Notes under the pieces: model-generated | The model's input: only the letters and a program-made list of their open reading frames with translations | Databases searched by the model: none | Told to the model about the DNA's origin: nothing | Part shown: one piece after another, positions 15,753 to 54,424 of the stretch | Layout: each line of letters starts with the position of its first letter | Numbering within the stretch: position 1 is the first letter of the stretch | Assembly: GCA_034687125.1 (NCBI GenBank) | Contig: JAQGBZ010000138.1 | Span: 89,426 to 153,425, forward strand | Direction of reading: 5' to 3' | Origin: Neelides folsomi | Taxonomy: Eukaryota > Arthropoda > Collembola > Neelipleona > Neelidae | DNA length: 64,000 nt | Position numbers and translations under genes: made by a program

Positions 15753-17043
15753 ATGGCAGTAATATTTAAGAAACAAAAGTTACATTGCATTAAAAGTGAC
15801 GAAGAAGAAATGGTGACTGTTTACACAAATCTAAAGCTGCTCTGTATGGTCAAGAACAACAAATTCATTTCATTCAAAGGACAAAGACCAAAAGTAAGAT
15901 TTACAATAATTCAAATTAAATTATTATCGGTTATTTAAATATATTTCAACATTTTAATTATATAACGGAATCTTGTTTTATAAATAGTTGAAAGAGTTGA
16001 CTGCATTGTTAACTGGAGTCTCAAAAAGGACAGTTATAAATATTTTCAATCGCGACAATGAAGAAGATCGAGAGAATGAATATCCTCAATTTGGAATCAC
16101 AAAAAGAGCACGAGAGGATGCTATTGGCAATTTCGACCAAGAAGGAATTAAGCAAATTGTCTATGAGATGTTTTTAAAAATTATACTTATATTGTCTTTT
16201 ATAATACTTATATAAAACCATTACTTAATTTTTAATTAATTTGTCAGAGGGTATTTCCAACATTTGACAACCTGTTGCCAGAAATAAACACACGGATTCT
16301 TTCATTTGTAGAAAAGAATGTTGGGAGAACGACTCTTTGGCAAATATTGAGGAAAATAGGATTTCGTTTTAAAAAAGGAACAACCAGACTTACACAATAG
16401 AACAACCGTCAATCGTTGCAAAAAGGATGGAATATCTGAGGTTGAAATATTTACAAATCAAAAATTATAAAATTTTAAGGTAATATGCTAATGTGAATGT
16501 TTAAATTACAGAAAAAAACGCATATATGAAAGTGAGAATCGGATTTTTACCTTTTTAGATGAAACATGGTGCAATCAGATTGATGTCTTAGCTTATAACT
16601 GGACTGATGGAACAAAAGAATCAAATATTAAATTTATGACTGGCAAAGGTTCTCGTGTTATTGTGACCAACAATGGAACATTCCACAATGGAGGATTTCT
16701 GGAGGATTGCTTGAATATCTTCAAATCAATTTCAGGAAAATCTGACTATCATCAAGATATGGATAATGTCAAGTTTAAAGAATGGTACATATCAAAATTT
16801 CTTTCAAAGCTCAAGCCAAAAATAGTTGTGATAATGGATAACGCTCCTCATCATTCACAAAGGTAAATATAATTGTTTTAATTTTTTACTCAGTTGTCTC
16901 ATTATTTACAGTCATTTTAATGCTATTTTGTAATATGGTAATTTTAGAAAATAAAAATCCTAACCTCAAACTCAAGAAAAGATGCAATGATTGAGTGGTT
17001 ACAATCCAAATACATTTCTTTCCATGAAGATACTGATACTTAG
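15753..17043 (+). pseudogene. Tc1/IS630-type transposase, intron-containing, frameshifted copy
   Basis: The first exon starts at ATG 15753 and ends near 15892 (AAA|GTAAGA). The second opens after ATAG at 15987 and encodes an N-terminal helix-turn-helix region (LKELTALLTGVSKRTVINIF). A third piece from about 16250 (VFPTFDNLLPEINTRILSF, then TTLWQILRKIGFRFKKG) is followed by a frameshift near 16390-16400. An intron with GTAATATG..TTACAG lies before 16512. The next exon has the first two catalytic positions, 'FLDETWCN' (D) and 'VVIMDNAPHHS' (D), and ends at an AG|GTAAAT donor near 16862. A final block reads MIEWLQSKYISFHEDT up to 17043, and the rest of the C-terminus, with the third acidic residue, is missing. 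The gene is inactive and belongs to the same family as the copy in 8382-8858. Confidence 0.8.
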
Positions 17044-23506: not shown

Positions 23507-24119
23507 CTGGAAAGAATCCGGTCCTGGGTGAGTTGAGCTCTTTCAAGTTGTCGAGAGTGAGAGGGAGCGGGTTAGAGGCCAGGAGAAGACCACCGTCAGT
23601 ATCAACATTCAACATGAATATCTTCGTATCCCGAACTCGGACACGACTCTTGCACAACTTTTGACTTCCTTGCCCAAAGCCATCGATTTGAATGAGAGTG
23701 CTCTCAAGGCCCCGGTCTCCTTTAATTACTCTTTTGACGCGGACGCGGGCGGCGAATCTCTCTCCGCTTTTTGCACCAAGACTATCATGTTTGTATCCAT
23801 CAATGTCTGTGTCGGCCTTGGTGCTCAAAATGCCCTGTGTGGGGTGGAAGTAGATCACAGAGTCGACGACGCCTGTGAGGACCATGCGAGCTTTGTCCTT
23901 TGCTGAACTGATGGTTTCAGACAGTTCAGAGCATGACCGCTTCATTACTCGTCTCCTACTTTTATATGTTCCTTCCCTCTCACCATTGCCAGAGCTGGGA
24001 TTTATGGTTCCACTGGACGTCGATTGAACAAAAATAGGGAAAATCCCGAATAGTAAAAATATAAAGAAGAGAGTTCGTCGTCGAACAGCACCACTCTCAC
24101 TTCGATCCTTCAATCTCAT
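23507..24119 (-). CDS. First coding exon with agrin-type NtA domain (partial gene)
   Basis: ATG at 24119 opens 204 codons plus one base, ending at a donor CCAG|GTAGGC (exon end 23507), so the intron is phase 1, as usual between extracellular modules. Residues 15-32 are a signal-peptide-like hydrophobic run after a basic start. Residues 60-196 match the N-terminal agrin (NtA) domain, an OB-like fold related to TIMPs that in vertebrate agrin binds laminin. Landmarks are Cys63, the strand MVLTGVVDSV, the strand FAARVRVKRVIKG (122-134), GFG (147-149), Cys156, RVRDTKIFML (161-170) and LPLTLDNLKEL (185-195). Both cysteines of the main NtA disulfide appear to be kept. Follistatin/Kazal, laminin-EGF and LamG exons expected in agrin were not found downstream, so the rest lies outside the window or was missed. 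Confidence 0.8.
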
Positions 24120-27100
24120 TTCTGCACTTCTTTATAGTATTAAATATTAAACTTGGGAGAAACTTGAGGAAACGATGAAAAGCAAATTGCTCTTTTGACT
24201 TTTCCAATTCAAATTCCTTAAACTATTAATGAGTTTCCTCGTAAGGGAATTGGCAGGAAAGGAGCTGGTGGGCATGAGAGTTTTGGAATAACTTTTAACT
24301 TCTGAAAATCTGCTAAGAGTTGGCAAAAGAAGCTATGAAGGAGGGTTCACAACAACGTTTGTGAAAGGCTCGAGCCCGTAATGAGGATTGACCGGTGTGA
24401 GGAAACAACCTGTTACCTTTATTCTCGAAACGAAAGCACGTCTCTTAAGAAGAGACTCTTTTTGACTCGCCCTCTCCCTACGCACAACTTGGGATATATA
24501 CCCCACAGAAGAAACCTTTTGTGGCTCCCAGGGAATCTTTTATATAGGCATTCTTATAACCTTACTGACTTCAAGGTACCTTTGGGAGGATGATGTTCTT
24601 CCTACATATTCGAATTTGTTAAGGGAACCCACCTCTGCTGATTTACTTGCTCCAAAGGATACCTCCTCTCCTAACTTATTATTATTACTCCTTCAAATGG
24701 CTAAGTACCCTCATCGGTATATGCTCAATACGAATCTTGTATAGATCACGACAGGGTACATAAAGGTCTTCTCCTAACAATCTTCCCTTCCTTAACCATT
24801 CGCTCCAGGTACCAAATATGAAAAGGACAGAGTTCTCTTTGCCTCCCACCTTCCTCTCTTTCCCTCCTAAAGATGTTCGACGTCAACCCGGCATGAAATA
24901 AGGAAAACGTCAATTTCAAATCCTACCGCACCCGACACTGATTTCTCACTGTCAAACCGATAATATGAGGAAAAGTCTCATCTTCATTGATCCATCTTTC
25001 ATCTCTCTCGGAGTCTGGGGAAGAGATAATAATATTCATATATTTATTTTTAAAACATTTCAAGTATGTGAACATTTCCAAACATTTCCATTTCATTTCA
25101 TTGACATCTTTAGATTTTTTTCAATAAAAGCAGTCGCCGAGTTATGACACATAAATTAAATATGCTATACTTGTACTAAAAGATACAGATATTATACACT
25201 TTTATTAGTATGTTTATATGAGTATATGCTTCGTATGTTTTTTCTATGAGAGTAAATACCATTTACTTACGTATCATAAGTATGTATGTATAAACCAGTA
25301 AGTACAATATAATATACCTTAATGGTATTACATTTACATATGAGTATTGTAATACAATGAAATTCCTACATTTTATGTAGTTTAAGAAGACTCAAATCAT
25401 ATTTTGATTTAACATGTTCGTGATTTTGGCTAGAGGTGTATTGAGTATCTATCTAATATTTGAAAATTCTTAAGTTCCTTAAAAGGAGATGAAGAACGAG
25501 CACATTCGTTGAGAGCATCATTGAGTAAAAATGGAGTAAGACACGTTTCGGGTTCACTTTGAGACGTGAGAATGAGGAAAAGTGAGAGGGGTTGAGGGAT
25601 AAATAAGTGAAATGGTTGAGTATTAGTCGAGGAAGGATGAAGAAAGGATTAAAGGTTGACAGTTCATGCATAATAATAGCTATCATAGCACATTATGATA
25701 ATGTGACAGACACTCACATATTATACCTCTATGAAAGTACACATTGTAATTCTAATATCTGCCAGCTTTAGCTCACATTAAAAATAAAAAAACATATTCT
25801 CCATTTTGGTAGACGGTATAAAGGTCGGGGAATGTTGTTACTTTTAAAAGTCAATTGTCGTATAAAGCTCTACAAAAATCTTCAAAATTCGAAATAAAGG
25901 TTGGAATGTTTCAAGCTCACTCTCACACACTACATGACCAACGGAATATTACTCTGATGCTGTGTATCTATCACTCAGCATCTCAGAAATTTCTTAAATA
26001 TTTAATTGATGCTTTACTTATGGTTTTTGGAGTAAACATTTAAGAAATTGACTACCAAGATATACTCTACAAACATACATAGGTGCATGTCTTAATTGAA
26101 AGTATAATATAGGTATAGTGACTACATTTTCATGACCTTTTTAACAACACTTGATACTTATTTTTAAAGTGCATATTTGTGGAAAATCATATAACTCGTG
26201 CCTGTTACTTATATATTAAATACTACAGTACATATACAAGGTCATGTACGTAAAATAAACAGTAATAGTAACTTTTGAAGAATTTCATTAACAAAAGTTG
26301 AAACATTACTTATATTCTCGTTTTTTTGTTATAATTTATAATGTATCCACAATGTACCATATCTACCTATATATAAATATTACAAACATGAAATTTCAAA
26401 GTTCATAATGATAATGCTATTACAGATACATATACAAATGTAATGCATATCAAAGATTTATTTTAGGGTCAACAACTAATGCTTTTTTACCTAAATTACA
26501 TTTGATATTGTATTTACTTTACCCTAAAATATTTTCATTACAAGTTCCCTTTTACACATTTCATGTTATGTGCTGACAATACACGTGAGAATATATGATC
26601 TCTAACACTTCAACACGATGAGCATTCCCGTATTCAGTTTGTAAGATCTAAAAAAAGATGTAGGGAAATTCTAAGAATGCGTGTATTAAGACAGGAGACA
26701 GTAAAATCTTCCTTATCTATTGCTTACTCCACCTTCTTTAAAAGCAAAATAAGTTAAGGCCTCCATGCGAGGTGATAAACTGATTGAGATATTTTACTGT
26801 CTATTGAAAGTTTCCTTGTAGAGGTATATAAAAAATTAACCTTTAGTTGAAAATAACTTTAGGTGGAACGTTGTACTTTTAGTTAGTCGGACATGAATAT
26901 TTCACTTTTTATGAGAAATAATGAAAAGACTTTTAAAAAGAATATTTCCTTGTCAAGAGAAATGAAACCATTGAGTGTCAGCATAGGACTTAAGTTGGTT
27001 TTTACCCTTTTACTAACGTTCCTCCACCTTTGCCTTCAATAGGGCATGAGATAAGAAGCTGGCGGGCGTCTTTTCTCGTTTTAAATCCTTTCCATGCTTT

Positions 27101-29566
27101 TACAACTAAACAATGTGACACATTTTTCTAATTAGTCTTTGTGTAAAATGTAAAGCAAGGCGGATCCTTTCACTTTATCTCAGGAACAAAAAATTAATTG
27201 GATAAATATTCTATTTCTCGTTTGTATCGACCTGTACATACGAGGACATACAGTAGAGTACTACTCGTATTTACATTGACAATTACTGATGGTGAGAAAA
27301 TAGTACTAAATGTGAGTGTGTAGTTACTCACATTTGTCAGTATTTTTAGGTTTCTAAAATTTATGCGTTTATGTTTATGAATACAAGTAATTTGTACAAA
27401 TTCAAGTAATATAAAAATATGTAATATTGTGTTTACAGTATAAGGGATAATTTTTAAGAACTTAAAATTGATAATTATATTCTAATTGTCTTCTTTGAGT
27501 TCTTTGAAAGGGTCTTCAAATGGTTTAAGCTAAAAGAGAGAATTGTTGAGATATGCGGGAGCCGTGGACAATGGGCAAGAGGAAATCCTTTGTGAAGACG
27601 GTATAAAGAGGCGTGAAGAAATGATCTTATCACTTAACCTTGTCTCTCCCATCTCTCATAGTTAGTTAGGGAGATGGAAGACACATGCGAGGGAAGTTAG
27701 TGTCAGCCACCGGAGACCCCATCCGAAGCATAACTCTGATTCTACAATGAGGTAACTGCAATGTAACCAAAAGGGTCCATCATCTCCCACATCGAAGAAT
27801 CCCCAAAAATTCCTTCAACGAGGTAAAAAGACTTTGGAGGGCCCTTTTAGAATCAAATATTTGTCAGAAGGTTTGGGAATTGATGACATGATGTTCGGAG
27901 CGCGGCGTATTCCAACGAATATCTTCCGACTTTCGGGTTTCTTTAACAGACAAGACTCTTCGCATAAATCTATCCTTTCATCTATAAACCCCCCGACTTT
28001 GAGCCGAGGAAATGAAATTGCCCTCCCCAAGAAATGGGTGACAAGGAAGGACAAAAGTTTAATTTTCACTTGAAAAAATTAGAAGGAACCTTGAAGGCGA
28101 TTTAGAAAAGAATTCTTACCCATATCTTCCCTTTTGTTCAATCCACAAATTCCTTTCCATTTTATCCTTTTCACTTTAAATCTCTGCATTTGGTTTAAAA
28201 ACTTCTTCCAAGAATTTCGTTTTCGAAAATTGTTTATATAACTAATTATCTTGGGTTAACCTCCAAAAACTTGAATCTAAATCCTACATTATATAAAATA
28301 CCTTGTTATCTCTATTTTTATCCTAGAAATCCCTTTTGTATGAAACTTAAATTTTGTATTTTTACTACAAATGAACCAAACTTCTTTCCAAATGACAATC
28401 CTTCGAGAGATTTTGTTTGTAATTCCACAAAGGCGTCCAATATTATCTTCAGACATTTTAACTTGTAAAACTGTCTCGTTAGGGATAGAGAATTTTAATG
28501 TAGAAATCATTGGAACAATACTTTTGACTCTGAGTCTGTCAGACTCAAAGAATCAGATATGGTATTGAGTATAAACAAAAAGCCTTTTATCCCTTTTATT
28601 ATATCAACTGACGCCCTATAATGTAGCGGGATGTAATGGAAGGTATTTTAACATATTTATGTATGCGACAGTCTTCGTCTTCAACGTCCCGACTTTACCG
28701 GTTGCCCTGTTATCCTTCAGGTTTCATATTAGAAGTATCAGATTTGGGATGGATCCGTTCGGAGAAGTGGAAAGAATAATAATCATGCATTATTCATGAA
28801 CTTCATGAGCTCACCTTTTTGTCTCCGTCTCATTCGTCTCGACTTCTGCCCCAAATAAAACTGCTCTATCGCTCGCTAACACTCTCATTCACTTTACTTG
28901 CTTTAAATGAGCTGAAGTCTATAAATGCCAGCTTCCTCGCACCCTCCTCGCTCCTTTTTATCTAATAAATTCGTCTTCTTTTAGTTGTAGTTTACTGCCC
29001 AGTACTTTCCTTTAAATTCTTCCAGTTTGCTTTGCCCATTTTTAAATCCATTTGATGAAAGATGTTTTTTATTGAGTGATATCATGGAATCCATTCTGCC
29101 ACGAGTGATAAATGGCTTTGTCGAGGAAAGAAGGTCAAAATAGGGTTAGACCCTTGTAATCAACGGCTTAACACGTACACCTCATCCCCATTTCATTAAA
29201 AACATTTAACACCTCAAATACCTTCATTTATCATTTTCTTTACCTTACACTGTTTCAGCTTACTGCAATATGAAATAATGCATAGATATCCATTATTTAT
29301 TACAGATGAATCAGATGATATACGAGAGAATATCATTTCTGTTAAAAGAAGAGCACATACAAATATTTGATGTAATTTGTATTATTCAAATCAAAAGTAA
29401 TCATTTTTCTTCATTATAAAGATATTGTTAGCGTCAATGTTTTAGTAGATAGTACAATAGATATAAATACTGTTTCACTAGTACATGTAACATAAAATTT
29501 TAATATCTACTTTGTTTGACATATGCAACACTCGGCTCATTGGTAAACGTTAACTTAAAAACAGCA
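24120..29566. other. Noncoding stretch upstream of the NtA exon
   Basis: No supported gene. 24.1-24.95 kb is GC-richer and may hold the promoter of the NtA exon, but no core element stands out. 25-27.5 kb is very AT-rich with many 'tatgta/tacata' repeats and small hairpins (for example AAATGTGAGT / ACTCACATTT around 27308-27335). Open frames at 27815-28073 on both strands and near 28271-28568 overlap each other and have no family resemblance. Confidence 0.45.
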
Positions 29567-30104
29567 TTGTCTCGAAATCTACTCCCGGGTACCTTTTAAA
29601 ATCCTACCCCTGACCCCCGGGTAACATATCGAACCCGGGTACATATCGAGTACCGGTTACCTTTAAAAATTTGAGGAAATGCCAATTGAAAATTATATTT
29701 TTTCCTTAAGTTTACAATAAATCTTCATAAGAAGTAACTTTAATATAATTATTTTAAATGTATATAATTCATGTTTACTCCATTTTCCATTGTTTGATAC
29801 ACTTTACGTCAACGGTAAAATGATGTGGAGCGCTTTTTCTACTATATTTTCAGCATATTTTACTTTTAAAGTTTAAATCCTATGTAAATTTCCTCTAAAT
29901 TGCTTAAACTTATTTAAGTTACAAATTCAATTTTAGGCTTAGGCTAAATTGATAGTTCTGTCAATTAAATATAACGTTTTCCAAGCTCATAAATTGAACT
30001 ATTAATGATTTAGACCCAGGCACCTTTCGAGACCCGGGTACCTTTTAAAATCTCATGTTAGATCCCCGGGTACATATCGAGTACCGGGCAGATATCGAGA
30101 CAAT
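29567..30104. mobile_element. MITE, 538 bp, TIR ATTGTCTCGAWATCT, CCGGGTAC-rich subterminal repeats
   Basis: The left end ATTGTCTCGAAATCT (29567) is repeated inverted at the right end (up to 30104). Inside each end is an array of units built on CCCGGGTAC and ATATCGAG. On the left these are CCCGGGTACCTTTTAAAATC, ACCCCCGGGTAACATATCGA, ACCCGGGTACATATCGAGTA. On the right they are the same units in matching order. The AT-rich core has no gene. No obvious target duplication is seen. The plan of TIR plus subterminal CCGGG array is shared with 7684-8093, so the two are probably distant members of one nonautonomous superfamily. Confidence 0.65.
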
Positions 30105-33100
30105 ACGGTACTCAACTCTATGGTTGTTTTCCCCTAAACCTTTTAAGTATTTATTTACAAGTTCACTTTGTTTGAAAAATAATCTATCCTGGAAGTTATT
30201 ACAAAAGAGTTATTTATCACTTTATAATATTCCAAAGGATTGTTCAAAAATGCTACCCGAAGATCTCAGAGATTTTACAATGCCCTAATTTAGTCAGTGG
30301 GCAGGCAATGTTTTAAAAGCTTTATATATAACCCTTTCTTCTCTTGGCATCATCTCTGGGCCCAATCGACTTTTCTTACTTAAAAGGAGAAAAGGGAAGG
30401 CCTTCACTTGTTTTTATCTCTCTTCTGTCATGATTGTTACTTCCCTCTTTCTATTGTTTTACTATTTTACAGTATTTATCATTTTATGTGAGGTCTTTTG
30501 ATTTATGAATTTATAGTTTTAATAATTCTTGAATTTCTTTATTATCCCATTGGCAGTTCTTTAATACTCTTTGAGATGTTTTAAACTAGAAGTTGTTTCA
30601 TTTCTCTTATCCAACGATAAGTAAAGAAAGATGTTAAAAAATTCAAGATGTTTCATATCTTCAATCATTTTTAACTTTTGTCTATATTAAAATGTAATAC
30701 ATTATTATCGCTATTATACATAATACTAATTACATAGTATTCATCTCATGTAATGTATAAATGCAATAAGGTAGTTTTGAGATTCGAATAGAGATGAAAT
30801 TCCTCCAACACGGTTGATTAGTTTATATACCTCGTAAAATGTTAATAAAGTGAGTAGGTGCCTACATAATTGAACCCAATCGAGTTGCTTTTAATAGACT
30901 AATAAATCGTTTAACAATAACTAATATGGTCTTATACATAACAAGAGTCTTAGTAAATTATTTGAGTCAATTAAGTTCCTAACGGTATGATCAAATTAAC
31001 ATCATCATATTTAATATTTGATAAGATAGTCGCTAAAAATACATAGTTATGTAAATATTTACATATTATTTATCATGCATCAAACTCCCACCATTTCTAT
31101 ACTAATAGTCTTCATTAAAATAATTCCATCTTATCAATATTTTCAATATTTTTACAAAACAACCTATGTATAAATGAGAAAATTTATAAATGAGTATTAA
31201 ATGAATACAATCACCAAAAAATCCTTTGTTGGCTGGTATCTTGGTAAAAATCTTATGTTCTCTATAGAAGAACTTTGACTTTAATATTGTAGAACTTTCT
31301 CGTGCAATGTAATCCAATGTAGGATAAGAAGTTAGTTATTGTAATAGCATTATATTATAAGTTATCTAGGTACGCTTACTACCATAGATATATATTGTAG
31401 ACCAAGTAGCTGAGGGTCTATTGATTGTATGGTTACTGGTAATAAGAACAATAAGAGCGACGAGTATTTAATAATCAAGATGAGGGATGAAACCCGAAGC
31501 TTTCTTTGATTGGGACAAGAGTTAAGCGGCCTAATTTACCAGGTTCGTATTGCATAAGAATGAGTTTCCCAGCGTGATTCTAAAGAGCATCCACCCAGTG
31601 AGCATATCTCCGTTTATTTGATGGGAGAAGGTCGGAGCCAACCGAGTTAGTCAAGACGACCCTTCATTTTTACCAATAAAGAATTCCGAGTCACTTTCTA
31701 TCTTCTTTACTGACCGTTCATCATCCAAGACGCTTAAAACCCCTGCATTGAAACAAACCGTCTTCACCTGTATGCACTTTTGCAGTCAAAAGTAACCGCC
31801 GGGCGCCTCCAATTCCAATTTAGTAACCGTAGGGTACCTCTTCGAAAATGTTTCCTTCGCACTTAATGAAGTCACGATGACCCGTTCATTTGCCATATAA
31901 AGCAATTTCAACAAGTTTTTGCAAATTTTATGATTCTACACTAATGAATCATATTTCCTTCGTCTACCTTTTACAAGCAGACTGATCATGTGACCACCCT
32001 TGACCATGAATAAATTTGTTTCGGACGCCACTTTGTGCTCACAAAAGTTAATATTGATTAAGGTCCAAATCCAAAGCAAAAACTTTGGAATTTCAAAATT
32101 ATTAAAGGTATGCATGAAATCGTAGATAAATAAAAGGTAGTTACCTACCTATATAATTATGATTATACTTGTCCAATTTACATCATTAATGGTACCTAAA
32201 CCCAACTATTTTATTGTTAGTTGCACGATTCATACTTACAATTAGGCATTTATGTATTCGTTGTTAAATATAAATACTTTTGTGGGATGTAAAGTGTACA
32301 CAAATTGAAGATTTTTAAAAGTGTTTAATTCGCGTAAGTCGGATAATTTAAATGGATCAGTATAAAAGAAATAGACCACCCAAAGTCTCTTGAGATGAAT
32401 TGAAATCTTAATGTGTTTTCAACCCATTCCACACCATAAAGGTAGAAGAATAGGCAATGATTATCTCGGATCAACGAAAAAACGAACGTGAAAACATGAA
32501 TCCATTCAAACGGACATTACAAAGTGAAGAGTCCCGCTGAATTATAAATTATTATTCCTTCATTTGGTTCATGAACAGACCCAGAGTTGCCTTTGGAAAA
32601 CCATATAAGGATTCATGGGACGAACCACGACTCCAATTCAATTTATGCACAAAATAGAGTCGAAGGTGAAGAGGGCTTTTAAACAACTGCCTCGCTATCT
32701 CTCTTGAAAAGCATTGTCCAATTCATAGCATTTCCTCAACAATATATTTACACACACTATGGGAAATGCTACACACGTGAAATGGAAAGTGAAAACAAAG
32801 GATTAGATTGGCATATTGAAGCTCATTTTCAAGGTATCATCACTCTTAAGTGATTCTCTTCACTTCAAATGTAGACTTTTAGTGAATCAATTTACGAACG
32901 TAAATAAAACCGTACAAAACATAGGGACAGTTGTACGTAAAATAATTAGGAGCGACTCTTGGTTTCACTATAGCAGTTTGATTTCATTGGATCAAAACCT
33001 CGCCCTAGTTTTATATTTATTGTTAAGAGATTGAATTCTTAGCTTCGAGTGAATCGAACGCCTTAAGAATATTATAAAAAACTCGGAAGAAGAAAAACTC

Positions 33101-36100
33101 TTACGCGCCCGTCTTAAACCATAAATATGTACATTGGGATCGGAGAGATTAGATAATATATGGCATCGAGGTCGGATGGGTTAATTGCATGTATCTTGTA
33201 TTCTCCACTGGTGAAAGCCTCGGCGTACCACCACGCTTATAAAAATCTCGCCTTACCAAAAGATTGGAGTTGATGCCTCAAGGAGCAGAGGAATTCTGTT
33301 TTTACACACTCGTGTAAGGGATATTATCGGCCCCATTACATTCGTTTGGAAGTGGAAATCGAAGAAGTATATTAAAGCTATTGACAGCATCTTCTCGCCA
33401 AGCTTTCCCTATCTCTTCCACTATTTAATACCAGTCGTTTCATATAAAGAGATATAGGTACAAGGATTTGTTTGGGGTTTGCAGGAGAAATGCCATTTCC
33501 TTACGTGGGCATCATGGACGGGGCAAGGGAATCAAAGTAGGTATGTGTCTGTCTGCCGAATGAAGTAAATTCTAATAGCTCTCCGGCCATAACGCAAGTT
33601 TTTCATTTGCTACTGAATTCATTTACATATTGAACAAATATCAAATTCAAATCAGTTTGTCACCCCGAAACCCACCTACTCTATATCCCTATTACATTCA
33701 CCAGTCACTTCGTATCATCTTCGTATCATTCCAACTTCTCTTCCTTGGGGCTTTAATGGGGAGAATGCTTCAAGTTCATCTTGGCACGTGTTTCTCTTAC
33801 TTCTCATTGTAGTTATGTACTCTCGATCCTTTTTCCATGTAAGGGTCGGAGAGTTTCAAAGTTTCGAGCCCCAGGAAGAAATTTAAAGGGACCCTCATGA
33901 GGAAACAATGAAGAAGAAAAAGGAAATGCTCTCGAAAAAATGTGAATAAATTAGGGGCCGAAGGGTCTATTAGTAAGTGTTAAGGCCTTGATTACATGGA
34001 TGGAGAGTGATAAGAGAATATGTCCCTATATTTTTAAAAAACTTTCCGTCATTCTAAATAGTATTTCTTAGGAAAGCGAATATGAGTACTCTATACCTAG
34101 TATATTTGTTAGTTATACCGAAACAATTCTTAAAGACTTGCATTTCGAGTTCTTTGAATATGAATTGCATTTAATGGCTAACGTGGTTTTGGAGATGCGG
34201 AAAGAAATTATGTTACTGGTTTAGTCGTACGGGGGAGGTTTAAGGGAAGATATGGGATCTTCCATCGGGCGACGACAACAACATTCACCACCATAGCTTG
34301 TAAAAGCTGGAGTGATAGGAGTGATAGCTCTCTAAGGAATCTCTCTCGATGGCGATGATGGCACAGGTAGAATGGAGATAAGAGAACCACATAGGTAGAC
34401 ACGATGTTCGTATTTCACTGTCTATGCAAAAGATCTGTGAATTTATATCTGCTCTTTTCCGTATGGGGAGACGCCCAAAATAGAGAGTAGTTTCTTATAA
34501 CGATAAACTCCGTTCTACGTGAGCCCCTGGATGGGGAAGAAAACATGAGAAATCTATATAATGGATTGCTCAAAAAAATACCATGTCTGGATATTTCTTA
34601 AATATGACCGGCTCTGCATGGAATACCTACATTGGATGGCGTGCACAAATTTCAACATCTAGATGTTGAAGTGAAGATGCATCTTCACAACACCAACACC
34701 CTATTTGTGATGATGAAAATAGGCGAGTGCTTTTTGTATTTATAACTACTCAAAGAATAAATTATATTAGAAGTTACAAATTATGAAAGCTGAAAGTGGG
34801 GAACATCTTTCCAGGCTGACCTTATAAAAAGATTCAAGTGTGAAATTATAATAACATAGTAGACATAATTTCCTTTTTAATCCAATATTGCTTTTAAAAT
34901 CTCATAACCAATATAAAAACTTGAGATATAATTGTAAATGATAGTAGTAATGCCAAATAGGAGTATATGAATGGTTTTAGGGGGCAGTTTTTGACCCAAA
35001 GATGCTTATCATTCATACAACATCGCAGCAATTCAAAATAATCCCATGGTTAGTTTGATATAGTGGAGTACTCAATAACTTAATAAGGAAATTTGTGTAG
35101 TAAAATAGATTACTCGAAACGAGTGTAGGGTCGGAATGACCGTTGAGTATTTAATGCACGTGTGAAGTTGATTTTCTCGATTTTACTCCAAAATTAGTAA
35201 AAGAATAAATTCTAGCTCCTTATTATTTCGTTTTATTATTGTACACACTCTTTCTTAAAGCTTAAATTTTATTTAAATTCGTACCAGTATATTAAATACA
35301 TTCCAAGTTATATTTTATTGTCAAGAACTGAATTACAGTAGTAATGTTGAACCTGTTACGTTATGTAGTACAAATACTAATACTTGAGCTGTGAGATCCG
35401 AGTGATAATTACATATATCCATTGATTTTAATGGAAAATTTATAGTAATAAATTTAAATTATTATAGACTCTCGTTATATGAGGATGAAAGGATTCACAC
35501 AAAAGAAAAATATTTGCTTCATTTAATCCTTTACAATATTTTAAATACGGATCAATTTTCAGAATGAAGTCTTTTGAATTGGTTTAAAAACGGCAACCGT
35601 CTTGATATAAATCAAAATTTATTACATAAGAATATCTTTTTCCCTTAGTCAAACTTAAAGATCCGTTCATTTGCATCTGTTCAATTCTTTCCCTTTGATC
35701 ATATCTTCGAAATCGTGATTTATAGAAATTTGGCACTGATTTTTTTAAACTGCCACAATGCTACTGGGGATGAAGCACATTAACTTGTCAGAATCAGAAG
35801 AAGGATGAAAAATTTCTACATATTATCCAAAAGGAATAAAAAAGCTTAATATATTACATATAAATATTTTTCATCATTTTCATCTCATCGTCCATTTGGG
35901 AAAACGTTTATTGTGATTTGATTATTTGTAATACACGAAAAAGTGTAGTATGTATGGTAGTATACCATAAAATTGAAGTGAAAGGAGCAACTCCTTAATG
36001 GGCTTAATTCAGCAGGAGAAAACTCAAAGGCTAATGGGATTGAGAAGAATAATGAGAATGGCAGTTAGGTGCCTTATTAGGCACATGAAAGTAAATGAAC

Positions 36101-39100
36101 AGAAAAGAATAAGGGGCCAGATACTGATAAGAAGATTCAAAATCTTCAAGAGTGAGTAATAATAGGAAGGAACGGTGACCAGGTTTGGTATAACTATAAT
36201 AACTAAACTCATGTATCAATTAGTTCACCTTCTCCTTGGGTGGTTGGTGCCGCGGACGGTGGGGATAAAACCACCCAGGCTCCTTCTAAGAAATTATGCT
36301 CACCACAATCGTCCGAAATGGATTCCACATCTCTTCTCCTGAATATGATCTTGGTTCATTACATACCTAAGTATGTACTATATATATAGGTATAGTACAT
36401 ATGTACTAGTAGTTAGGTTTCCTTAATTCGAGCGAGTAAACTTCTGAGTCCTCTCTCGACTTCCTCTCATTTACCTTGATTCATGGCATCCTCCCTCCCG
36501 CTTTAATGACCATAAACTTTGTAAAAAACCGTAAATAATTCTCTCCATCTCCAGAAAATGTTTTATGAAATTAGAGCAAGGCGGATTAATTAATATCCCA
36601 TGAATTTAAATTATTCAACTTATCCAAGCGTCTTCGAACCTCTTCGTTCTTCTATTCCTTTTCATAAAGTTTACATTTAATGTGTGCGTACATACATTAT
36701 TCCTACACTCCTTCAAGCTAGTAAATATCACGTAGTTATTATGTTGTTTCATTCGTCTAAAGCTTTAATGGAATAATCTTTCTATAAGAATAAGAAACAC
36801 CTCCAACAATCCATATATTATTTTCAGCGCGGACCCACGAACGTAAAATAAGTAAAACGTAATCTTTGACTTTTAAGTAAGACCGCTGAATGTGAAGATG
36901 TAATAAAGCATTGTTTAATTCTAATGCTCATTTCTCGTTACAAAGGGAGCGATCCATAAATACATGTATGGTTGTTTAGAAGGGCACATGGCCTGATGGT
37001 GAGGAATGAAGTACTAACCATTTAAGAGAAAAGAAATGATTTGAATGTGAGTATGAGGAATAAGAATAAGATTGAGGAAGGAGAGGAACTTGGTGAAGAA
37101 AGGCCCTTGAAATAGTGGTTCTGGCTCCAGTGAGCTTAATTAGTTTTTACTAGTGATTTATTCGAAGGAACTCTTTGGAATGTCACAGATTGGGCCTTCT
37201 GCTCATAAAATTTGGGACCCTCCCATAAATTATTTTACTCCTCTCCTGCTAATTGTTCTTTCAGTTACCTACTCACTCGTTATTCATGATCAGTTAAGTG
37301 ACGCATTCATTTTTTACACTATCAACTTTTCGGCTTCTTTCCTTATAGTTCAACAATTCGCCAAAAGCAATTAAGGTGAGCTCCACCAGTCACTCGATAA
37401 ATAACTCGTACGCTTTTTTGATTCAGAAGAGTACTTCACTTTACACATTCCAATGAAACTAACAAACATGGAATATCCGTTTAGGGTAAAAGCCGAATAT
37501 CAATCTTAAACTGGTTCAATAAAAATTGAGATTTATTAATTGATTAAAAAAATTTAAAAGCTTTCCATTTCAATTTATCTAATCAAGGCAAAAAATATTT
37601 TAGACGTCAAGATAGCATTTAGTTTTAATATAATTTTAATTTAATCCATTAAACATTTTGATTTGATATAACCCCTATTGAATTATTATACTTGTACATA
37701 CGAGTTTTCACTTCCAAATATTATGTATTACTAACTAAGCCAAGAATCTTCACTCCATAGTTTACAAAAAGTTGAACAGGGGCTCTTATTACAACTCCAT
37801 TGTCATCATTCAGAGTTGTTGGCCTCTCGGTTAATGTGAATTGTTTTATTTCGTATCTCGTGTTCGCTGGCCAGTCTCATCAACTATTTGCAAGCTTATC
37901 TTTTCATCTTAAATGACTTCACTGCCTTTTTCGGAAAAGAAAATGAGAGGCAGTCAAAGAGTTTTACACGACCTAAGTTTAAGCTCAACAATAAAATACG
38001 GCAACAATAATTCACTCATTTCATTTGCCAAGAATCATAAAATAATTTTGTTGAGAAAAAAATCAAAATTTTTAATCTTACGTACTATATATTATTGAGA
38101 AAAACTATGCTATTTATTATTTTTATCACAGAATTACCTTACTTACTATAATTAAATAATTAATATATTGTTATTCTGTAGTGTATAATATATATTATAC
38201 ATATTGTAAAAAGATGACATATATCATATCATACACACATAATATCTATACAAATGAACATACTTATCTTATCTTTTAAGGGTTATAAAGATAAAATCTT
38301 CAATTAATGTTTACCGTTACTTTTCTAAATTCAGGAAGCCATATTTTCCCCTCTTACCAGTATTTATGAGCTTTTATTATATTAAATAATGGTTTTAACA
38401 GGTAGGTTGTCCATTATTAATACATAATAAATAATTATGTGTGTATGTACAGAAATACATATAGTAGTATGTGCTTACTAGTGTGTAGGGAGTTAGGGAG
38501 GGTAAATAAACCTGTATGTTACCTACCTAAAATATTTATATACTCTCTATACATGTATACTTAAAATAAATATTATTTTATGAAATGAATGCATTCTATT
38601 TTATACTACCATACCCTGGTATACTCTTCACAACGGGTACCATGCTTATTGAATACATAAATATACACAAAGTTATGTGTAGTGTTACTTTGAGTTGCAT
38701 AAAAAATATTGTCATTTAGATACTTATCTCAACTTTTCTCCAAATAAATATTTATATACATAGATGTAAACGATAAAATTCTAAATACTTATGCTTGTGA
38801 TCATGTAAGTACCTATTTTACAAAGGATACTTACACTATACACACATACTTACATGAATATTACAGAATATTTAAATATACCAATAATACAGATAAGTAC
38901 TATTATTGATTATTGCCTATTATATATAAACAAAATACATATTATTATACTATAGTATATTTTCATACAGATAGCGCAAATTAATGTAAACGAAGAAAAC
39001 AATGTAAGTAAAATGGCGTAATTAATTCTTCAACTATTTACCGAGAAATTTGTTTATGTGTTTTTCCTAATGATTTCCGCTTACTTAACCCAGTGGATGC

Positions 39101-39862
39101 AGAAGCAGAAGTGCAGATATAGTTAGACAAATGAGATTCGCAAAAGAATTGGTAAACAACGAAAGGACTTGGGTATTGAAGCACACGTGTAGCAAATCTA
39201 TTCATTCGTTTAAACATTTTTTAGTTTCCCGTATGAGAGAAACAAACAAGAGGACTTGAAATGAAGAAAGATTCTGGAAAGTATTAAAAGATATAAACAT
39301 CGACTTCTCTCTCACAAGTCTTTTTTTCTTTCAACCCTCGACAAACTTCATGAAGTCGTCGTCGTGCCATTAAACTTTTAATGCCTAAACATGGGTTATA
39401 TCTCAACTAGGGCCTTTATGACAAAAGAAATAGGGCTGTAAGTTGGTGTAAAAGGGTGCAGTTTAAGACGCTTTTTACCCAGATTAGGGCAATGTTGAAC
39501 ATGAGAAATGAAGGAAAGAGGAAAGATACAAGAAAGCACGTTCCTCAACAGGAGAATTCCACTTTTGGCAACTCACAAATTTCTCACTTTGAACTACTTT
39601 TTCTTAGAGCCCATAAATTAGAGAAGCCTTTCAATGCAAAAACTTTATCTGTAATCTGAAATGTATCTAATATTGTTTAAATGGAGGTACTTTTTGTAGG
39701 TACATTAATTGTTGAATTGAAAAAATATTTTTGCATTAATATGATAAAAATTTTCGGGAATGCCGGTAATCGGCCAATGTAATTAATTTATATTTTGAGC
39801 ATTAAACTAAATTTCATCAACCTTCTTAAGCTTATTAAAACATAAAAATAAAAAAAACTGAC
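30105..39862. other. Long noncoding stretch between the two NtA exons
   Basis: Nearly 10 kb without a supported exon. GC-richer, non-repetitive blocks occur at about 31.4-32.0, 32.4-34.6 and 36.2-37.4 kb; frames of 60-75 codons there have no domain or splice support. An imperfect palindrome TATGTACTATA..TATAGTACATA lies near 36373-36400. 38.1-39.0 kb is dominated by degenerate 'tacata/tatgta' repeats. The stretch may be intronic or regulatory DNA for the agrin-like locus; the sequence alone does not decide. Confidence 0.4.
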
Positions 39863-40754
39863 TTTTGATGGCGGTTCTTAAAGCGTCGAACACGTAAAGC
39901 GTAGGAGAAAGAGGAGGATATGTTTGGATCCAGTTTTCATTCGAATCCTTAGTTGAAACTGGAACGTTGTCATTGTAAAAGAATATTCGGGTATCTTGAA
40001 CCCTAAGTCTTCTCAAACAACTCGTCAGGTTTGGGAAAGTGTAAGCTGAGCTATAAACATAAACCACGATAGCTTTCCCTTCCAGTTTCTTACTACCCTT
40101 AAAGACTGTCTTAATGAAAATTTTGGCTCGGAACTTGGGTTTAATAACAGAGGCTCTTAAAAGTGGAGGGTTTTCGGTCTGAGATAGCAATTCATTGTCG
40201 TTGGTGTGGCCGCGAGTGTGGAAGCTATGCCGTCTTCGTTTTGCTGTAAGATTGTAATAATAATAGAAATTCTCCCTGCTCGTCGTCGTCCTAAGCCTCT
40301 CATCTTCTCTCTTAATCTCGTCCAACTCAAGGATCTTTCCAGCGAATATAATTGAGGAATTGAAAACGGCTTTAGAGATTCCATTGGCGCTGAAACATCT
40401 CTTCTGACTTGTATTTAAGGAAGTTCTCTTGGATTTAGTGTGAGTTGCTGATCCAAGGGCTGCAGGCAGTGACCGAGTCGTTGTTGAAGTAATGGAGACT
40501 TCATTTCCATCGATGCAGTTGTGATTGTTTGGAAGGTTCGTGGCCCTCATTAGGCTTCCTTCACTCCTACTTTTGGCCAAGAAGTCAGGAGGTGATACAT
40601 CGTCCTCATTATTATTCCGGGCAGATTTGAAGGCTCCTGGAATCTCTCGCACACTCCCACGACCCTCACACCCATCGATGAGTCGAAGCATCATTATTGT
40701 AATGGGCAAAACCAGAAAAAGCTTTATTATTGTTCTTTGACCTAACGAGCCCAT
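39863..40754 (-). CDS. Second NtA-like first exon, diverged (partial gene)
   Basis: ATG at 40754 opens 297 codons plus one base, up to a donor AAAA|GTCAGT (exon end 39863), again phase 1. Residues 9-27 form a hydrophobic signal-peptide-like segment. A low-complexity linker runs to about residue 110. The NtA-like domain then spans 118-297: Cys120, SIIFAGKILEL (134-144), a long basic and Tyr-rich insertion (about 147-205), FRAKIFIKTVFKG (208-220), AIVVYVYS, Cys246, RVQDTRIFFY (251-260) and SPTLYVFDALRTAI. These match the landmarks of the exon at 24119, including both cysteines, though overall identity is low. It may be a paralogue or an alternative first exon of the same gene; no downstream exon was recognised. 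A run of tyrosines at 164-167 and the large insertion are unusual for NtA. Confidence 0.7.
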
Positions 40755-47411: not shown

Positions 47412-50400
47412 CTAAACTTGATTAACATTTCCTTCGCCCGCACTTAAAATGTCTAATTTGAAGAGGAAGTAAATGCCTACGAGAATTAAAGGAAACCCAA
47501 GAAGAGCGCAGATAAGTTCACCAGTGAAAACCGGCATCCAGACGAGAATGTGGGTCCTCATCTGGAAGACCGACCACCAAACGCCCACGATTGGAAAGCC
47601 GAGAACGGCGAGAGAAATTGCGATCATGGGCGATCGGATGAGGAGAATCAAATATGTGAAGGCTTGTGAGAAAACAAAGATGGAGAGAATGAGGAACCAC
47701 GATGAAGGACCCGTCAGAGAATTGACAAAACCAGCAATCAGCACACTCGGCAAATTTCCCACGGTTGTGCCCTAGTATAAATGATAAAAACTCTTTAATT
47801 TTTTAGACAAGATAATACAATAAACCTAGTAAACTAATTTTGTTAAAGATTCCTACATTGGCACAAAAAGTTCAAACCAGTTTGACATTAAAAATATTTG
47901 CTTCAAAGATTCAATAGGTTAATGTGTTGTGATTCTTGTTAAATGTGTTAAAGTTCAATTGTAAAAATTCAATGTTTTTTTAATCAATCATTGATCATTT
48001 GGAAAAGGAGAAAATATGTAATTCTCAATTGAATTATTTTTATATCAGTATTTGTGTCAACATACTGTATACCTACTCTAGACACATTCATGTAGAGTAA
48101 TTATGACATTCACAATCAGTAAATAAAGTTAATTTTTATATTTTAGTAATACATACATAATTTAAACTCACTAAAGTTCAAATACACACATAACATATTG
48201 AAAATTATTTTACCTTTCCAAATCCTGGAACGAATTCAGTCCAAAAGAGACTCGCAATGAAAAGCCAACTTGTTATTTGAAACCAAAGAACAGCATTTGC
48301 AACATTAAGGAACGGCACTCTTGTGTAAGGATTCGCTCCATATCTTGATATAATTCTTTGATTTTGAAAGAGATCCGGCTCTGGACCAATGGGGTCTTCG
48401 GGTACGGACTCTGTCTGAGTTGTATTTGTATTGTCTGTAATTCGGATCACAGTCATTTTCACGGCATTGTACTGTTCGTAATAAACTCGAGAGTTTTGCC
48501 TTTTCTGTTGAGGAAATAAAATTGTCATTTACCGATTAACATAATAACGGCCATCAATTAAATTAAGATTTGGAGATTTCTTGTAATTTTTTCTAATTTT
48601 TCTCATATTGCATTACTTCAAGGCACACTGAAATTTAAATTTTACTATAGAAATAAAACAATGGTAGCAAATGTCAAACTCTGTGTCGTAGTCATGATTT
48701 TAAAAGGTTTTTAATTTTAATTCACCCCACTGTTGTAATAACAAGAGCTAAAAGTCGACGGATTACCGAAATACATACACTGATATTTTATAAACAATTC
48801 AAATTTTAGGAAAAAAAGAACTTCAAACATGTTACTATACCATCCGATCTTATATAATGATGAGATGGTAAATCTACCTAAACACAAAATTTAATTTAAA
48901 AGAACAAACATTGGAAAATAAACAACAAAGCGATTCACAAGACCCACAACCTGTGATTGTGATATTAGTGGTGATTATTGATATTATCGATGAAATGCTC
49001 GATCTTTAGATTTTAATCAAATATTAATAATGTATTTTATATTACTATATAATATATGTAGATATACCTAGTATTTATTATATTCTATATACTTAGAGTC
49101 GTTTAAAAATATTCTATATAATATCCGTAAAATGTACTTAAGATTTTAATAAAGAAATAAAGTATCGTGTACTTTATACATACCTAATATACATTACCAA
49201 CTTTGAAAGACGGGACTGTGCAATTTTGGAAGTGCTTACAGAGGGTTTCGTATAGAGATACGTTTGTCTTGTACCTTGTCAAATATCATATATTTAATAT
49301 CCTACACTTATATCATACTGAAATAAAAACTAAAGCCAAATTACACACTAGTTTTTTTTACTTCTGACCTTGCACGATGAATTTAACTGGAGTCCATATT
49401 TATACAAGTTTAATACTTATATTTGTATTATAACTTATAACTACTGTTAAATTTCGATAAGTTCGGCCGTTCGATTTTTCATAAATTATAATATTCTTAG
49501 TAACAACATAAAATTTTAACTCATTTGCCCTGACCTTGGTATTACTATTTATCCTGGATAACTTCGCATACCCTGCAATTCTCCAATTTAATAAACTAGT
49601 AGAAACGAATATAAAATTAACCTCATAGACATATCTTTAATTTAATAATTAAATTAATGTAAAAAACTAAAAGATAACTTGACTAATAATAATTAAAATG
49701 GATGCTAAATAAATATAACGTTTTTTTAACCTGAGGTATTAAATAAGGTTATAAAGCTATAATTATTATAAGGCTCTAATTAATAAAGTTCTAATTATTC
49801 AAAATTATTAAATTATTAATTAATACCAAGGACTGGGCAAAAGAGTTAAAATTTTATGTTGTTACTGAGAATATTTTAATTTATAAGAAATCGAACGGCC
49901 GAACTTATCGAAATTTAACAGTACCTACTGTTTCATTACTTACGCTAAAACGACCCTTGAAATTTTAAAAAAGGGCATTTCTATGAAAAAATTTCGGATT
50001 TTTAACCTTATAATTACGATATCACTTAATTATTCGTAATTAAATAAAAATATAGGTAATATACATAATATTAATACTCATTTTAGTAGTGAGAGTTTTG
50101 GAGTGGACGAACCAAGTGGAGTTGATTTGGTTTAAATGTTTAATTTTTCACTGTTAAGTGATTTTAATTAAATAATAAATATATTTATAATTTTAAAGTG
50201 ACTTAATTTATTTGCACACGTTGTCAATAGGTTAATTTTGAAAATAAACAACATTTTAAATTTCAAGGGTCGTTTTAGCTTAAGTAATGAAACAGTACCT
50301 ACATAAAAATTAGTATTTGCACACACATTTACCACATTCCTACATAGATTCATTTTAGCTGGTTCTATAGTATACTCTCCCACAAAAAAGCAATTAAATT

Positions 50401-51716
50401 TGAGAAAAGAGTTTGTAGTCATAAAATATAGTAGAGTACAATTTTAAAGCATTGACTTTCACAAAGAGCAATGTCAAAATTAAAATCAAAATATGTAACA
50501 TAGCTCTATGCACTAATTATATTATTACTAATATTCAAATGACGAATTCATAATTTATAACAATATAATAATTATTACCCAATAATGTATTATCTGTTAT
50601 ACATAGTTTATAGTTGTATACAATATTTATTCCGAACATAAGATAAAATTACTTATAACATTAACTTAAATACATACCTTTGGTAAAGGGATGGCAGTTT
50701 CTAAACAAAACATAGAAACTGTCCAAAGCCAAATGGACACAACGAAGGCCAAGGTCCAAACAAGATGAACTTTCCATGTCCATGGGTCTGGAGGCGGATG
50801 AGGATAATAAAACCCTCTGCATCTGTGATAATCTACAAGAGGGTAGTCGACACTCACAAATACTCCAACAGCAATGGTTGCAAGAGCAAAAGATCTTTTG
50901 AATCCAAGACCTAAAATAAAAATAATCAAGCATTTATATCATGAATGTAAAACATGTAAGTCGACTTTAATTATAAAGTTATGTGATCATACGATTCCAT
51001 TTGTTGATACAGTGGGTAATGATAGCAAAAATAACGACGAGTCCCAATAATGGATCTTGAAGATTACATTTAACTTTTTTATCTTCCCAGGAATAAAATA
51101 ATGTAAGAATGCTGAGGCCAACAGAAAATCCAATTTTAAAAATGTTGAGGGCTGAGAGACTGGGTTTGAATATCATTCGTTTCCAATAGAACAACTTAAG
51201 AATGGAGGACGAGAAGAGAAAAAGAGCTGTGGAAATTGTAGCTGCTGCTAAACAAGCTGAATATCCATCGGCGATTCCATCTGTCACATCTTCAAGATGC
51301 CTCGGGAAGAATATGAGACAACCAGATGATGAAGCTATGGTGAGAAATCCGCTGAGCAAGAGCCGCCAGTGAATCCGCCAAAGTTCTGCAAGACTTTTTC
51401 CAGCCGTGGGGATTCGAACAAAGAAGAAACTCTTTATTCTCATTTCAAGGTTACTGAGAGGTATCTTTGGAATCTGATTTGTCCCGCCAGCACCACTGTT
51501 TTGGGGTTGATTTTCAACATTGTTATATTGACCTGACCTTTTATTCGATCCAGTGTTTATTTGACTTTTATTTGACTTTTTATATTTTTGATTTTTATCA
51601 CAGTTGCTTCCATCTTCTTTGATTGCAAGTTCACAATCCAATTCATCTTCTGGGTTTGAATCTGATATCAAAACTTCTTTGTCTTCTCTCATTTTTTCAC
51701 TTTCCCTATTTCTCAT
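47412..51716 (-). CDS. Multi-pass membrane protein, 535 residues, family not recognised
   Basis: Four exons join in frame: 51716-50993, 50910-50678, 48504-48214 and 47771-47412. Donors are GTATGA, GTATGT and GTAAAA; acceptors are TTTTAG, CAACAG and ATACTAG. The lengths (724, 233, 291, 360 nt) give 535 codons plus stop, with phases 1, 0, 0. Residues 1-95 are hydrophilic, acidic then Asn/Lys/Ser-rich. About ten hydrophobic segments follow: 118-137, 152-176, 191-209, 223-237, 249-266, 290-312, 389-408, 440-461, 463-485 and 492-520. A loop rich in aromatic residues and prolines (CRGFYYPHPPPDPWTW, 272-287) and a 70-residue hydrophilic loop (317-386) are distinctive. It presumably acts in a membrane with a cytosolic N-terminus. 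It could be a carrier, receptor or TMEM-like protein; I found no motif to choose. Intron 2 (2.2 kb) hosts two MITEs. Confidence 0.8.
49444..49921. mobile_element. MITE, 478 bp, TIR CTGTTAAATTTCG, TA duplication
   Basis: A terminal inverted repeat of about 110 bp starts CTGTTAAATTTCGATAAGTT at 49444 and returns inverted to 49921. It is flanked by TA at 49442-49443 and 49922-49923, as in Tc1/mariner elements. Arms differ by only a few indels and substitutions. The centre is AT-rich and noncoding. It lies in the large intron of the membrane-protein gene, six bases from the next element. Confidence 0.85.
49928..50295. mobile_element. MITE, 368 bp, TIR CTGTTTCATTACTTA, TA duplication
   Basis: The left end CTGTTTCATTACTTACGCTA at 49928 returns inverted, ending at 50295, with about 40 bp of near-perfect repeat (through GACCCTTGAAATTT). 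TA flanks both sides (49926-49927 and 50296-50297). The interior is AT-rich with no gene; a minus-strand frame at 50168-50422 runs across the end of the element and is not a gene. It shares the CTGTT start and TA target with its neighbour at 49444-49921, although the rest of the TIR differs. Confidence 0.8.
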
Positions 51717-53872: not shown

Positions 53873-54346
53873 TTAAAGGGACATTGTATTGTAAGAAAGA
53901 ATTACTAAAACAATCGATGATATTAAATGAAATGAATTTAAATTGATTTTTAAAGCACCATTAAGATGGCATCCGGACTTATCGTAATTAGGTTTGTACA
54001 ATGGATCACAAGTGCAATATTTTGAAGCTGGGTTGCAAAATGAGTATGGAGGACAATTATGTTGCCATTGTTCGTATGTCCCACCATAGTTCTCCTCACA
54101 AGCGTAGCCAACTCGGATCATGCAGCGTTTTTCATCGTAAATCCAAATATGTTCGGGTTCTTTACATCGGCAAAAAAATCGGTTCGTGTCACAAAATAAA
54201 TTGCTCCGATGGTCACAACTATTTGAAAGTCCAGGAAAAGGTGTGCAGCTCTCTCGAAAAGTCCTATAGCCTTCAGAGCTCCTTAATGATGAAATAATTC
54301 CAAGGAGGACGATAAAAATGATGGAATAATGGTCTATTTGTACCAT
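53873..54346 (-). CDS. Secreted or GPI-anchored protein with two six-cysteine modules
   Basis: A single coding exon of 157 codons. Residues 1-25 form a signal peptide (hydrophobic core 8-20). Twelve cysteines fall into two modules with the same order C-x-C-x-C-x-C-X-C-x-C: Cys34, 44, 52, 59, 61, 75, then Cys83, 98, 104, 111, 113, 126. The CRC/CTC pairs (59-61, 111-113) resemble EB modules and related arthropod cysteine-rich domains. Residues 136-152 are hydrophobic and reach almost to the end, which suits a GPI-anchor signal. Six bases before the ATG is an acceptor (ATTTTCAG), and a strong donor (AC|GTAAGT, exon end 54424) lies 71 bases further upstream, so a leader intron in the 5' UTR is likely. 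The ligand or role is unknown. Confidence 0.8.
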   Translation of the reverse strand: MVQIDHYSIIFIVLLGIISSLRSSEGYRTFRESCTPFPGLSNSCDHRSNLFCDTNRFFCRCKEPEHIWIYDEKRCMIRVGYACEENYGGTYEQWQHNCPPYSFCNPASKYCTCDPLYKPNYDKSGCHLNGALKINLNSFHLISSIVLVILSYNTMSL

Positions 54347-54424
54347 TTTAATCTGAAAATATAAAGATAGAACATTATTTTTAAACGTTTACTTTTTTAT
54401 GCGAAAAAGGTTAATCAACTTACG

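Follow-up and report, generated by a model that had tools for sequence, protein, structure and literature searches.

The stretch of DNA analysed here (the window) comprises 64,000 nucleotides (nt) from the collembolan Neelides folsomi and corresponds to bases 89426-153425 of contig JAQGBZ010000138.1 (C138; 153,425 bases). The window contains two exons, referred to here as exon A and exon B, whose sequences resemble NtA, the N-terminal domain of agrin, and the body of an agrin gene is found on the same strand of this contig, to the left of the window. Adding 89,425 to a window position gives the contig coordinate; positions prefixed with C138 are contig coordinates, and all others are window positions. 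Exons A and B, the agrin body, and the candidate transmembrane head and mini-exon described below are all found on the minus strand. Genome searches covered the whole assembly (75.1 Mb in 840 contigs), and splice donors and acceptors were scored with general consensus frequencies untrained on this genome.

The NtA-Type Exons

Exon A (23507-24119) begins with an ATG at 24119 and ends at a phase-1 donor (CAG/GTAGGC) after 23507, giving a first coding exon of 613 nt, or 204 codons plus one base. The encoded sequence contains a hydrophobic signal region (residues 16-34), cysteines at residues 63 and 156, and no N-glycosylation sequons. Exon A exceeds the curated cut-off of the Pfam NtA family (PF03146; 25.1 bits) both as a whole exon (42.4 bits, with profile positions 31-115 of 115 matching 23544-23765) and after trimming (44.2 bits), and it is the sole match of the family profile in the genome. 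Searches of the PDB with exon A alone return four matches, all of which are agrin, with a best E-value of 0.11 for the whole exon and 0.036 for the trimmed exon. Chain position 74 of the agrin structure aligns with a cysteine in exon A and in a profile made from exons A and B together, while Cys2 lies beyond the printed alignments; Cys2 and Cys74 form the cysteine pair of chicken NtA. Chain position 117 is opposite a Leu of exon A, and the residue found there in exon B depends on the alignment. The chicken residues Leu117 and Val124 are presumably laminin contacts, and a literature search for them found nothing; these positions serve as a lead and not as a test.

Exon B (39863-40754) begins with an ATG at 40754 and ends at a phase-1 donor (AAA/GTCAGT) after 39863, a length of 892 nt, or 297 codons plus one base. 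The encoded sequence contains a hydrophobic signal region (residues 8-26), cysteines at residues 29, 80, 120, and 246, and four N-glycosylation sequons. NtA is the top Pfam family for this exon, at scores that all lie below the cut-off: 16.8 bits (E = 0.0064) for the trimmed exon, 15.7 bits for the core, and 14.9 bits for the whole exon, where profile positions 33-96 of 115 match 39969-40136. The NtA-like core, which aligns with exon A and contains cysteines 120 and 246, spans 39864-40412. Within it, a loop of 62 residues (residues 144-205; 40140-40325) accounts for most of the length beyond exon A and contains 15 Lys, Arg, or His, 9 Asp or Glu, and 4 Tyr residues.

An earlier reading of the window, made from the sequence only, had described two NtA exons on one strand, each with its own ATG and phase-1 donor, and this description is borne out. 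The same reading gave each exon a signal peptide, both NtA cysteines, and a conserved strand; the strand and two common cysteines are present, and the signal peptides are seen as hydrophobic stretches only. Its view of exon B as strongly diverged agrees with the 29% identity described below and the NtA score below the cut-off. In contrast, its '60-residue basic, Tyr-rich insertion' is overstated, as exon B is only 33 residues longer than exon A between the common cysteines and the loop holds four Tyr. The Pfam search that it proposed gives a divided answer, since exon A scores 42.4 bits and exon B scores 14.9 bits against a cut-off of 25.1 bits. The sequence-only reading would have given up its interpretation if the second exon failed to match the NtA profile, and a match exists, at a level below the curated threshold. 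Structure modelling of both exons, also proposed there, was uninformative: the AlphaFold2 models made with a two-row alignment have a mean pLDDT (predicted local distance difference test score) of 34.9 for exon A and 33.6 for exon B, which is too poor to use. A C-terminal helix appears in both models and is not used as evidence.

Relationship of Exons A and B

In a BLASTP comparison, the two exons are 29% identical across 80 residues (E = 1e-6), and none of 3000 shuffles of exon B attained their Smith-Waterman score of 76 (maximum 65). A six-frame search of the genome with trimmed exon A (E<=10) returns two matches, exon A itself and exon B. The match to exon B, which lies 16 kb away on the same contig and strand, has 35% identity over 52 residues and an E-value of 0.40, which is not significant by itself. 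The reciprocal search with exon B finds nothing beyond exon B itself at E<=1. Both exons contain the strand R(V/L)RV(R/Q)DT(K/R)IF and a common pair of cysteines (63 and 156 in exon A; 120 and 246 in exon B, which are C6 and C132 of trimmed exon B), such that the domain cysteines and the DTxIF strand are kept in exon B at 24-29% identity to exon A. The additional length of exon B falls both before the first common cysteine (119 residues vs 62 in exon A) and between the two cysteines (126 vs 93, or 33 more). Taken together, these comparisons indicate that exon B is homologous to the accepted NtA domain of exon A.

The joint profile of exons A and B was also compared with the PDB. All five matches are agrin (best E-value 0.0015), and agrin appears in none of the 11 matches of a control profile made from exon A and shuffled exon B, nor in the single match of a control made with reversed exon B. 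The shuffled control reached an E-value of 0.015 for a ribosomal protein, indicating that values near this arise by chance in the test. Furthermore, trimmed exon A alone gives agrin at 0.036, and thus the signal of the joint profile comes mostly from exon A and the gain from exon B is modest.

No direct repeat of at least 30 nt joins the two exons within 21000-43000, so the duplication, if there was one, is old. Among the open reading frames (ORFs) of the window, the one that holds exon B (321 codons) ranks first in length and the one that holds exon A (223 codons) ranks third, and an ORF of at least 223 codons occurs in none of 100 dinucleotide-shuffled windows (longest 220). A pattern search for relatives gave 29 stretches in viral contigs and 98 in prokaryotic contigs, with none confirmed in either; given the makeup of these collections, this absence is uninformative for animals.

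The Agrin Body and Its Predicted Splice Joins

As anticipated by the sequence-only reading, a Kazal/follistatin body is present to the left of the window. Among the genome matches listed for Kazal_2, 9 of 41 sit on C138 at 69.3-48.0 kb, and 4 of the 44 listed for laminin-G sit on the same contig at 46.8-43.1 kb. Laminin-EGF modules are found at about 50 kb amid the follistatin exons, an EB module is found near 47.5 kb, and EGF modules are found amid the laminin-G exons. The order is that of an agrin gene, wherein NtA is followed by follistatin/Kazal, laminin-EGF, EGF, and laminin-G exons on the same strand. The SEA domain has no match on C138 at E<=1 and two matches elsewhere in the genome, and a SEA domain split between exons could escape this search. 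A Lustrin-type cysteine-rich module (L007:1625-1903, equivalent to C138:51403-51125, minus strand; 22.6 bits, cut-off 27) is also seen between the follistatin and laminin-EGF exons. We know of no agrin with a Lustrin-type module at this position.

The phase of each acceptor was taken from the codon position, with one third past a codon read as phase 1. A phase-1 AG is found immediately ahead of the domain in all eight follistatin exons inspected, a set that leaves out the Kazal match near 53.2 kb. Two of these exons, follistatin exons 1 and 3, also have an AG within the domain that scores higher. Follistatin exon 1 (C138:69410-69201) has a phase-1 acceptor and a donor score of 1.99. Upstream of it is a mini-exon of 33 nt (C138:84162-84130) with good splice sites (donor score 7.49). 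The frames of exons A and B are both open into follistatin exon 1, with or without the mini-exon.

A Candidate Transmembrane Head

A further candidate first exon lies outside the window, between exon A and follistatin exon 1 (C138:85084-84328). It has an ATG, 252 codons plus one base, and a phase-1 donor (T/GTAAGC; score 2.83), and it encodes a single transmembrane helix at its end (residues 227-245; hydropathy 3.06). Joining this exon straight to follistatin exon 1 creates a TAA at the junction, and joining it via the mini-exon leaves the frame open. The only Pfam match is a weak one to CCDC28 (16.1 bits, cut-off 25.6), and no second copy of the exon is found in the genome at E<=1. This exon is likely a third, membrane-anchoring head of agrin. 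In vertebrates, too, the transmembrane exon is placed after the NtA exons and ahead of the body.

Coding Signal

A codon model was derived from laminin-G loci. Of 30 loci, the 2 on C138 and 9 with stops inside the match were left out, and L020 and L028 were dropped from the remaining 19 for stops, leaving 3564 codons. Scores in the own frame exceed those of the best of the other five frames for exon A (0.135 vs 0.059), exon B (0.056 vs -0.130), and the transmembrane exon (0.107 vs 0.036), and follistatin exons 2-4 also score highest in their own frames. Follistatin exon 1 is not best in its own frame, and the model is consequently weak evidence only. Between exons A and B, none of the 267 ORFs of at least 30 codons reaches half of the total of exon B (7.9 vs 16.6; longest 105 codons).

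Interpretation of the Locus

The sequence-only reading had proposed either alternative first exons or a tandem duplication. Exons A and B are homologous and neighbouring and share the same phase, and no third copy was found, so both proposals fit, and the two are mutually compatible. Exons A and B are therefore read here, with a probability of about 0.6, as alternative first coding exons within a single agrin gene, with an old tandem duplication of the NtA exon as their proposed origin. Each exon would have a promoter of its own and encode a separate signal peptide and NtA-type head, and each head would be spliced in phase 1 to follistatin exon 1, either directly or through the mini-exon. Exon A would provide the orthodox laminin-binding head. 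Exons for the laminin N-domain are present in the genome (14 matches, 13 above the cut-off). The diverged sequence of exon B, together with its longer loops, extra cysteines, and four sequons, probably points to another mode of laminin binding or to another partner. The candidate transmembrane head would give a membrane-anchored form. A fuller proposal stands at roughly even odds: three alternative heads, arranged as NtA-B, NtA-A, and transmembrane, would belong to one agrin gene and give two secreted forms, which differ in their matrix-binding head, and one membrane-anchored form.

Several findings weigh against alternative first exons. The whole of exon B falls below the Pfam NtA cut-off (14.9 bits, E = 0.024), and exon B alone finds no agrin in the PDB (whole exon at E<=1, 5 matches; trimmed exon at E<=10, 1 match). 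The phase-1 donors of the two exons are unequal in strength, and that of exon B is weak by the consensus weights (0.62, within the top 8% of GTs, vs 6.72 for exon A). Exon B lies 59.9 kb from follistatin exon 1, and agreement in phase is expected by chance in 1 of 3 cases for each exon. Moreover, follistatin exon 1, which is accepted as coding, scores 0.120 in its own frame and 0.193 elsewhere in the codon model. On the other side, the donor of exon B is the only one of 12 GTs at 40040-39800 to score above 0, it falls by eye inside the spread of likely donors of the same gene, and GTCAGT is also found at the fourth follistatin exon.

The weak donor also bears on the possibility that exon B is a separate gene formed by duplication of the agrin head, which would encode a secreted NtA-like protein either from a single exon or with small undetected exons of its own. 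Unspliced, the exon B frame passes the donor and continues for 18 codons until a stop at 39807, and an ATTAAA is found 424 nt further on. However, these 18 codons have a low coding score (-0.359 per codon, a value as low as this being found in 8 of 280 stretches of the same size within exon B, by the weak codon model), the donor sits where the NtA-like domain ends, which is also its place in exon A, and no strong coding ORF was seen between exons B and A, though short exons would escape. A separate gene is unlikely, while still the most serious of the alternatives. The weak donor and strong divergence could also reflect a pseudo-exon, that is, a remnant of the duplication that is out of use. 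This seems improbable, as the exon B frame is free of stops, is the longest in 64 kb with a length unmatched in 100 shuffles, and retains the two cysteines of the domain along with the DTxIF strand despite its low identity to exon A.

Splicing of exon B into exon A, which would yield one agrin with two tandem NtA domains, is slightly less probable again. A TGCAG is located right ahead of the ATG of exon A, and inspection by hand indicates that a phase-1 donor joined there stays in frame, but this acceptor is poor (-2.84, with a third of all AGs equal or better) and the signal peptide of exon A would sit inside the protein. The least probable reading of all is that the likeness of exon B to NtA is due to chance in the absence of homology; the Pfam score and the lack of a PDB agrin match for exon B alone speak for it, and the E-value of 1e-6 to exon A, the rank of NtA as top Pfam family, and the position of exon B as the only second genome match to exon A speak against it.

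Comparison with Known Agrins

Vertebrate agrin is made in either a secreted NtA form (LN) or a type II transmembrane form (SN), depending on which first exon is used, as described in the available portions of PMC2874008 and PMC1939731. The NtA head anchors agrin to laminin, and the choice of first exon thus sets matrix or membrane localization (PMC2874008, available text). Similar to vertebrate agrin as described there, the Neelides locus has an NtA head, a follistatin array, a body of laminin-EGF, EGF, and laminin-G domains, and a candidate transmembrane head on the same strand; the architecture given in the available text of PMC2874008 fits the locus except for the lack of a SEA match on C138. 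In contrast to the single NtA head of vertebrate agrin, there are two candidate NtA-type heads here, of which that of exon B is diverged with long loops. In the candidate transmembrane head the helix is preceded by about 226 residues, and its likeness to the vertebrate head is one of layout.

For the AGR-1 protein of C. elegans, 5' rapid amplification of cDNA ends (RACE) yielded a single isoform, which has a signal sequence, and an NtA exon was not found, according to the available text of PMC1939731. The record is conflicting, as an NtA domain from C. elegans is named in the Fig. S1 legend of PMC2874008. Like AGR-1 (PMC1939731, available text), the agrin gene described here belongs to an invertebrate and combines a follistatin array with a laminin-G end; unlike AGR-1, it is associated with two NtA-type exons. 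Apis and Tribolium agrins are given as orthologues with an agrin body in the available text of PMC2874008, as is found here, and none of the eight sequences that the Fig. S1 legend lists for the NtA alignment is from an arthropod. The same source, in its available portion, states that practically nothing is known of agrin function in invertebrates.

Among the openly licensed papers that the searches listed, titles and abstract openings revealed no report of two NtA exons or of a transmembrane agrin in an invertebrate. Agrin with a choice of head is already known, and two NtA-type heads in one gene were not met in the openly licensed literature searched. If the locus does encode two NtA-type heads and a transmembrane head, the choice of head would not be a vertebrate speciality, and the two exons would offer a natural pair of NtA domains for testing what NtA binds. 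Use of the transmembrane head would mean that the switch between secreted and membrane forms is also found in invertebrates and is either ancestral or evolved twice. Alternative heads would allow the same matrix protein with different anchors to come from one gene.

Other Features

Several additional features were observed in the window. Upstream of exon B, two frames at 47412-48528 (minus strand) have hydrophobic stretches by eye and no Pfam match, and a frame at 50979-51716 (minus strand) has hydrophobic stretches by eye and a weak match to 7tm_3 (16.5 bits, cut-off 33.5). Coiled-coil frames of a gene that is also upstream of exon B are present at 55479-57093 (minus strand); three were scanned, and all scored below the Pfam cut-offs (best ATG16, 25.2 bits). 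By eye, these frames are reminiscent of ELKS/Bruchpilot-type proteins. A cysteine-rich frame at 53873-54388 (minus strand) starts, by eye, like a signal peptide and is hydrophobic at its C-terminal end; it has no Pfam match at E<=1, and its product is perhaps a surface protein anchored by glycosylphosphatidylinositol. Between exons A and B, a 40-nt unit that has CCCGGGTA at its beginning and at its end occurs twice within 29584-30072, with starts 449 nt apart. Fragments that resemble the DDE_3 transposase are found at 8526-8858 (minus strand; 21.6 bits) and 16492-16866 (plus strand; 18.6 bits); neither fragment reaches the cut-off (28.6 bits), and these are likely remnants of elements, presumably of the mariner type. 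Elsewhere in the assembly, contig C742 is a mitochondrial fragment in which COX1 is open under the invertebrate code and nad2, cox1, cox2, and part of atp6 are recognized by eye, in an order that we take to be that of arthropods.

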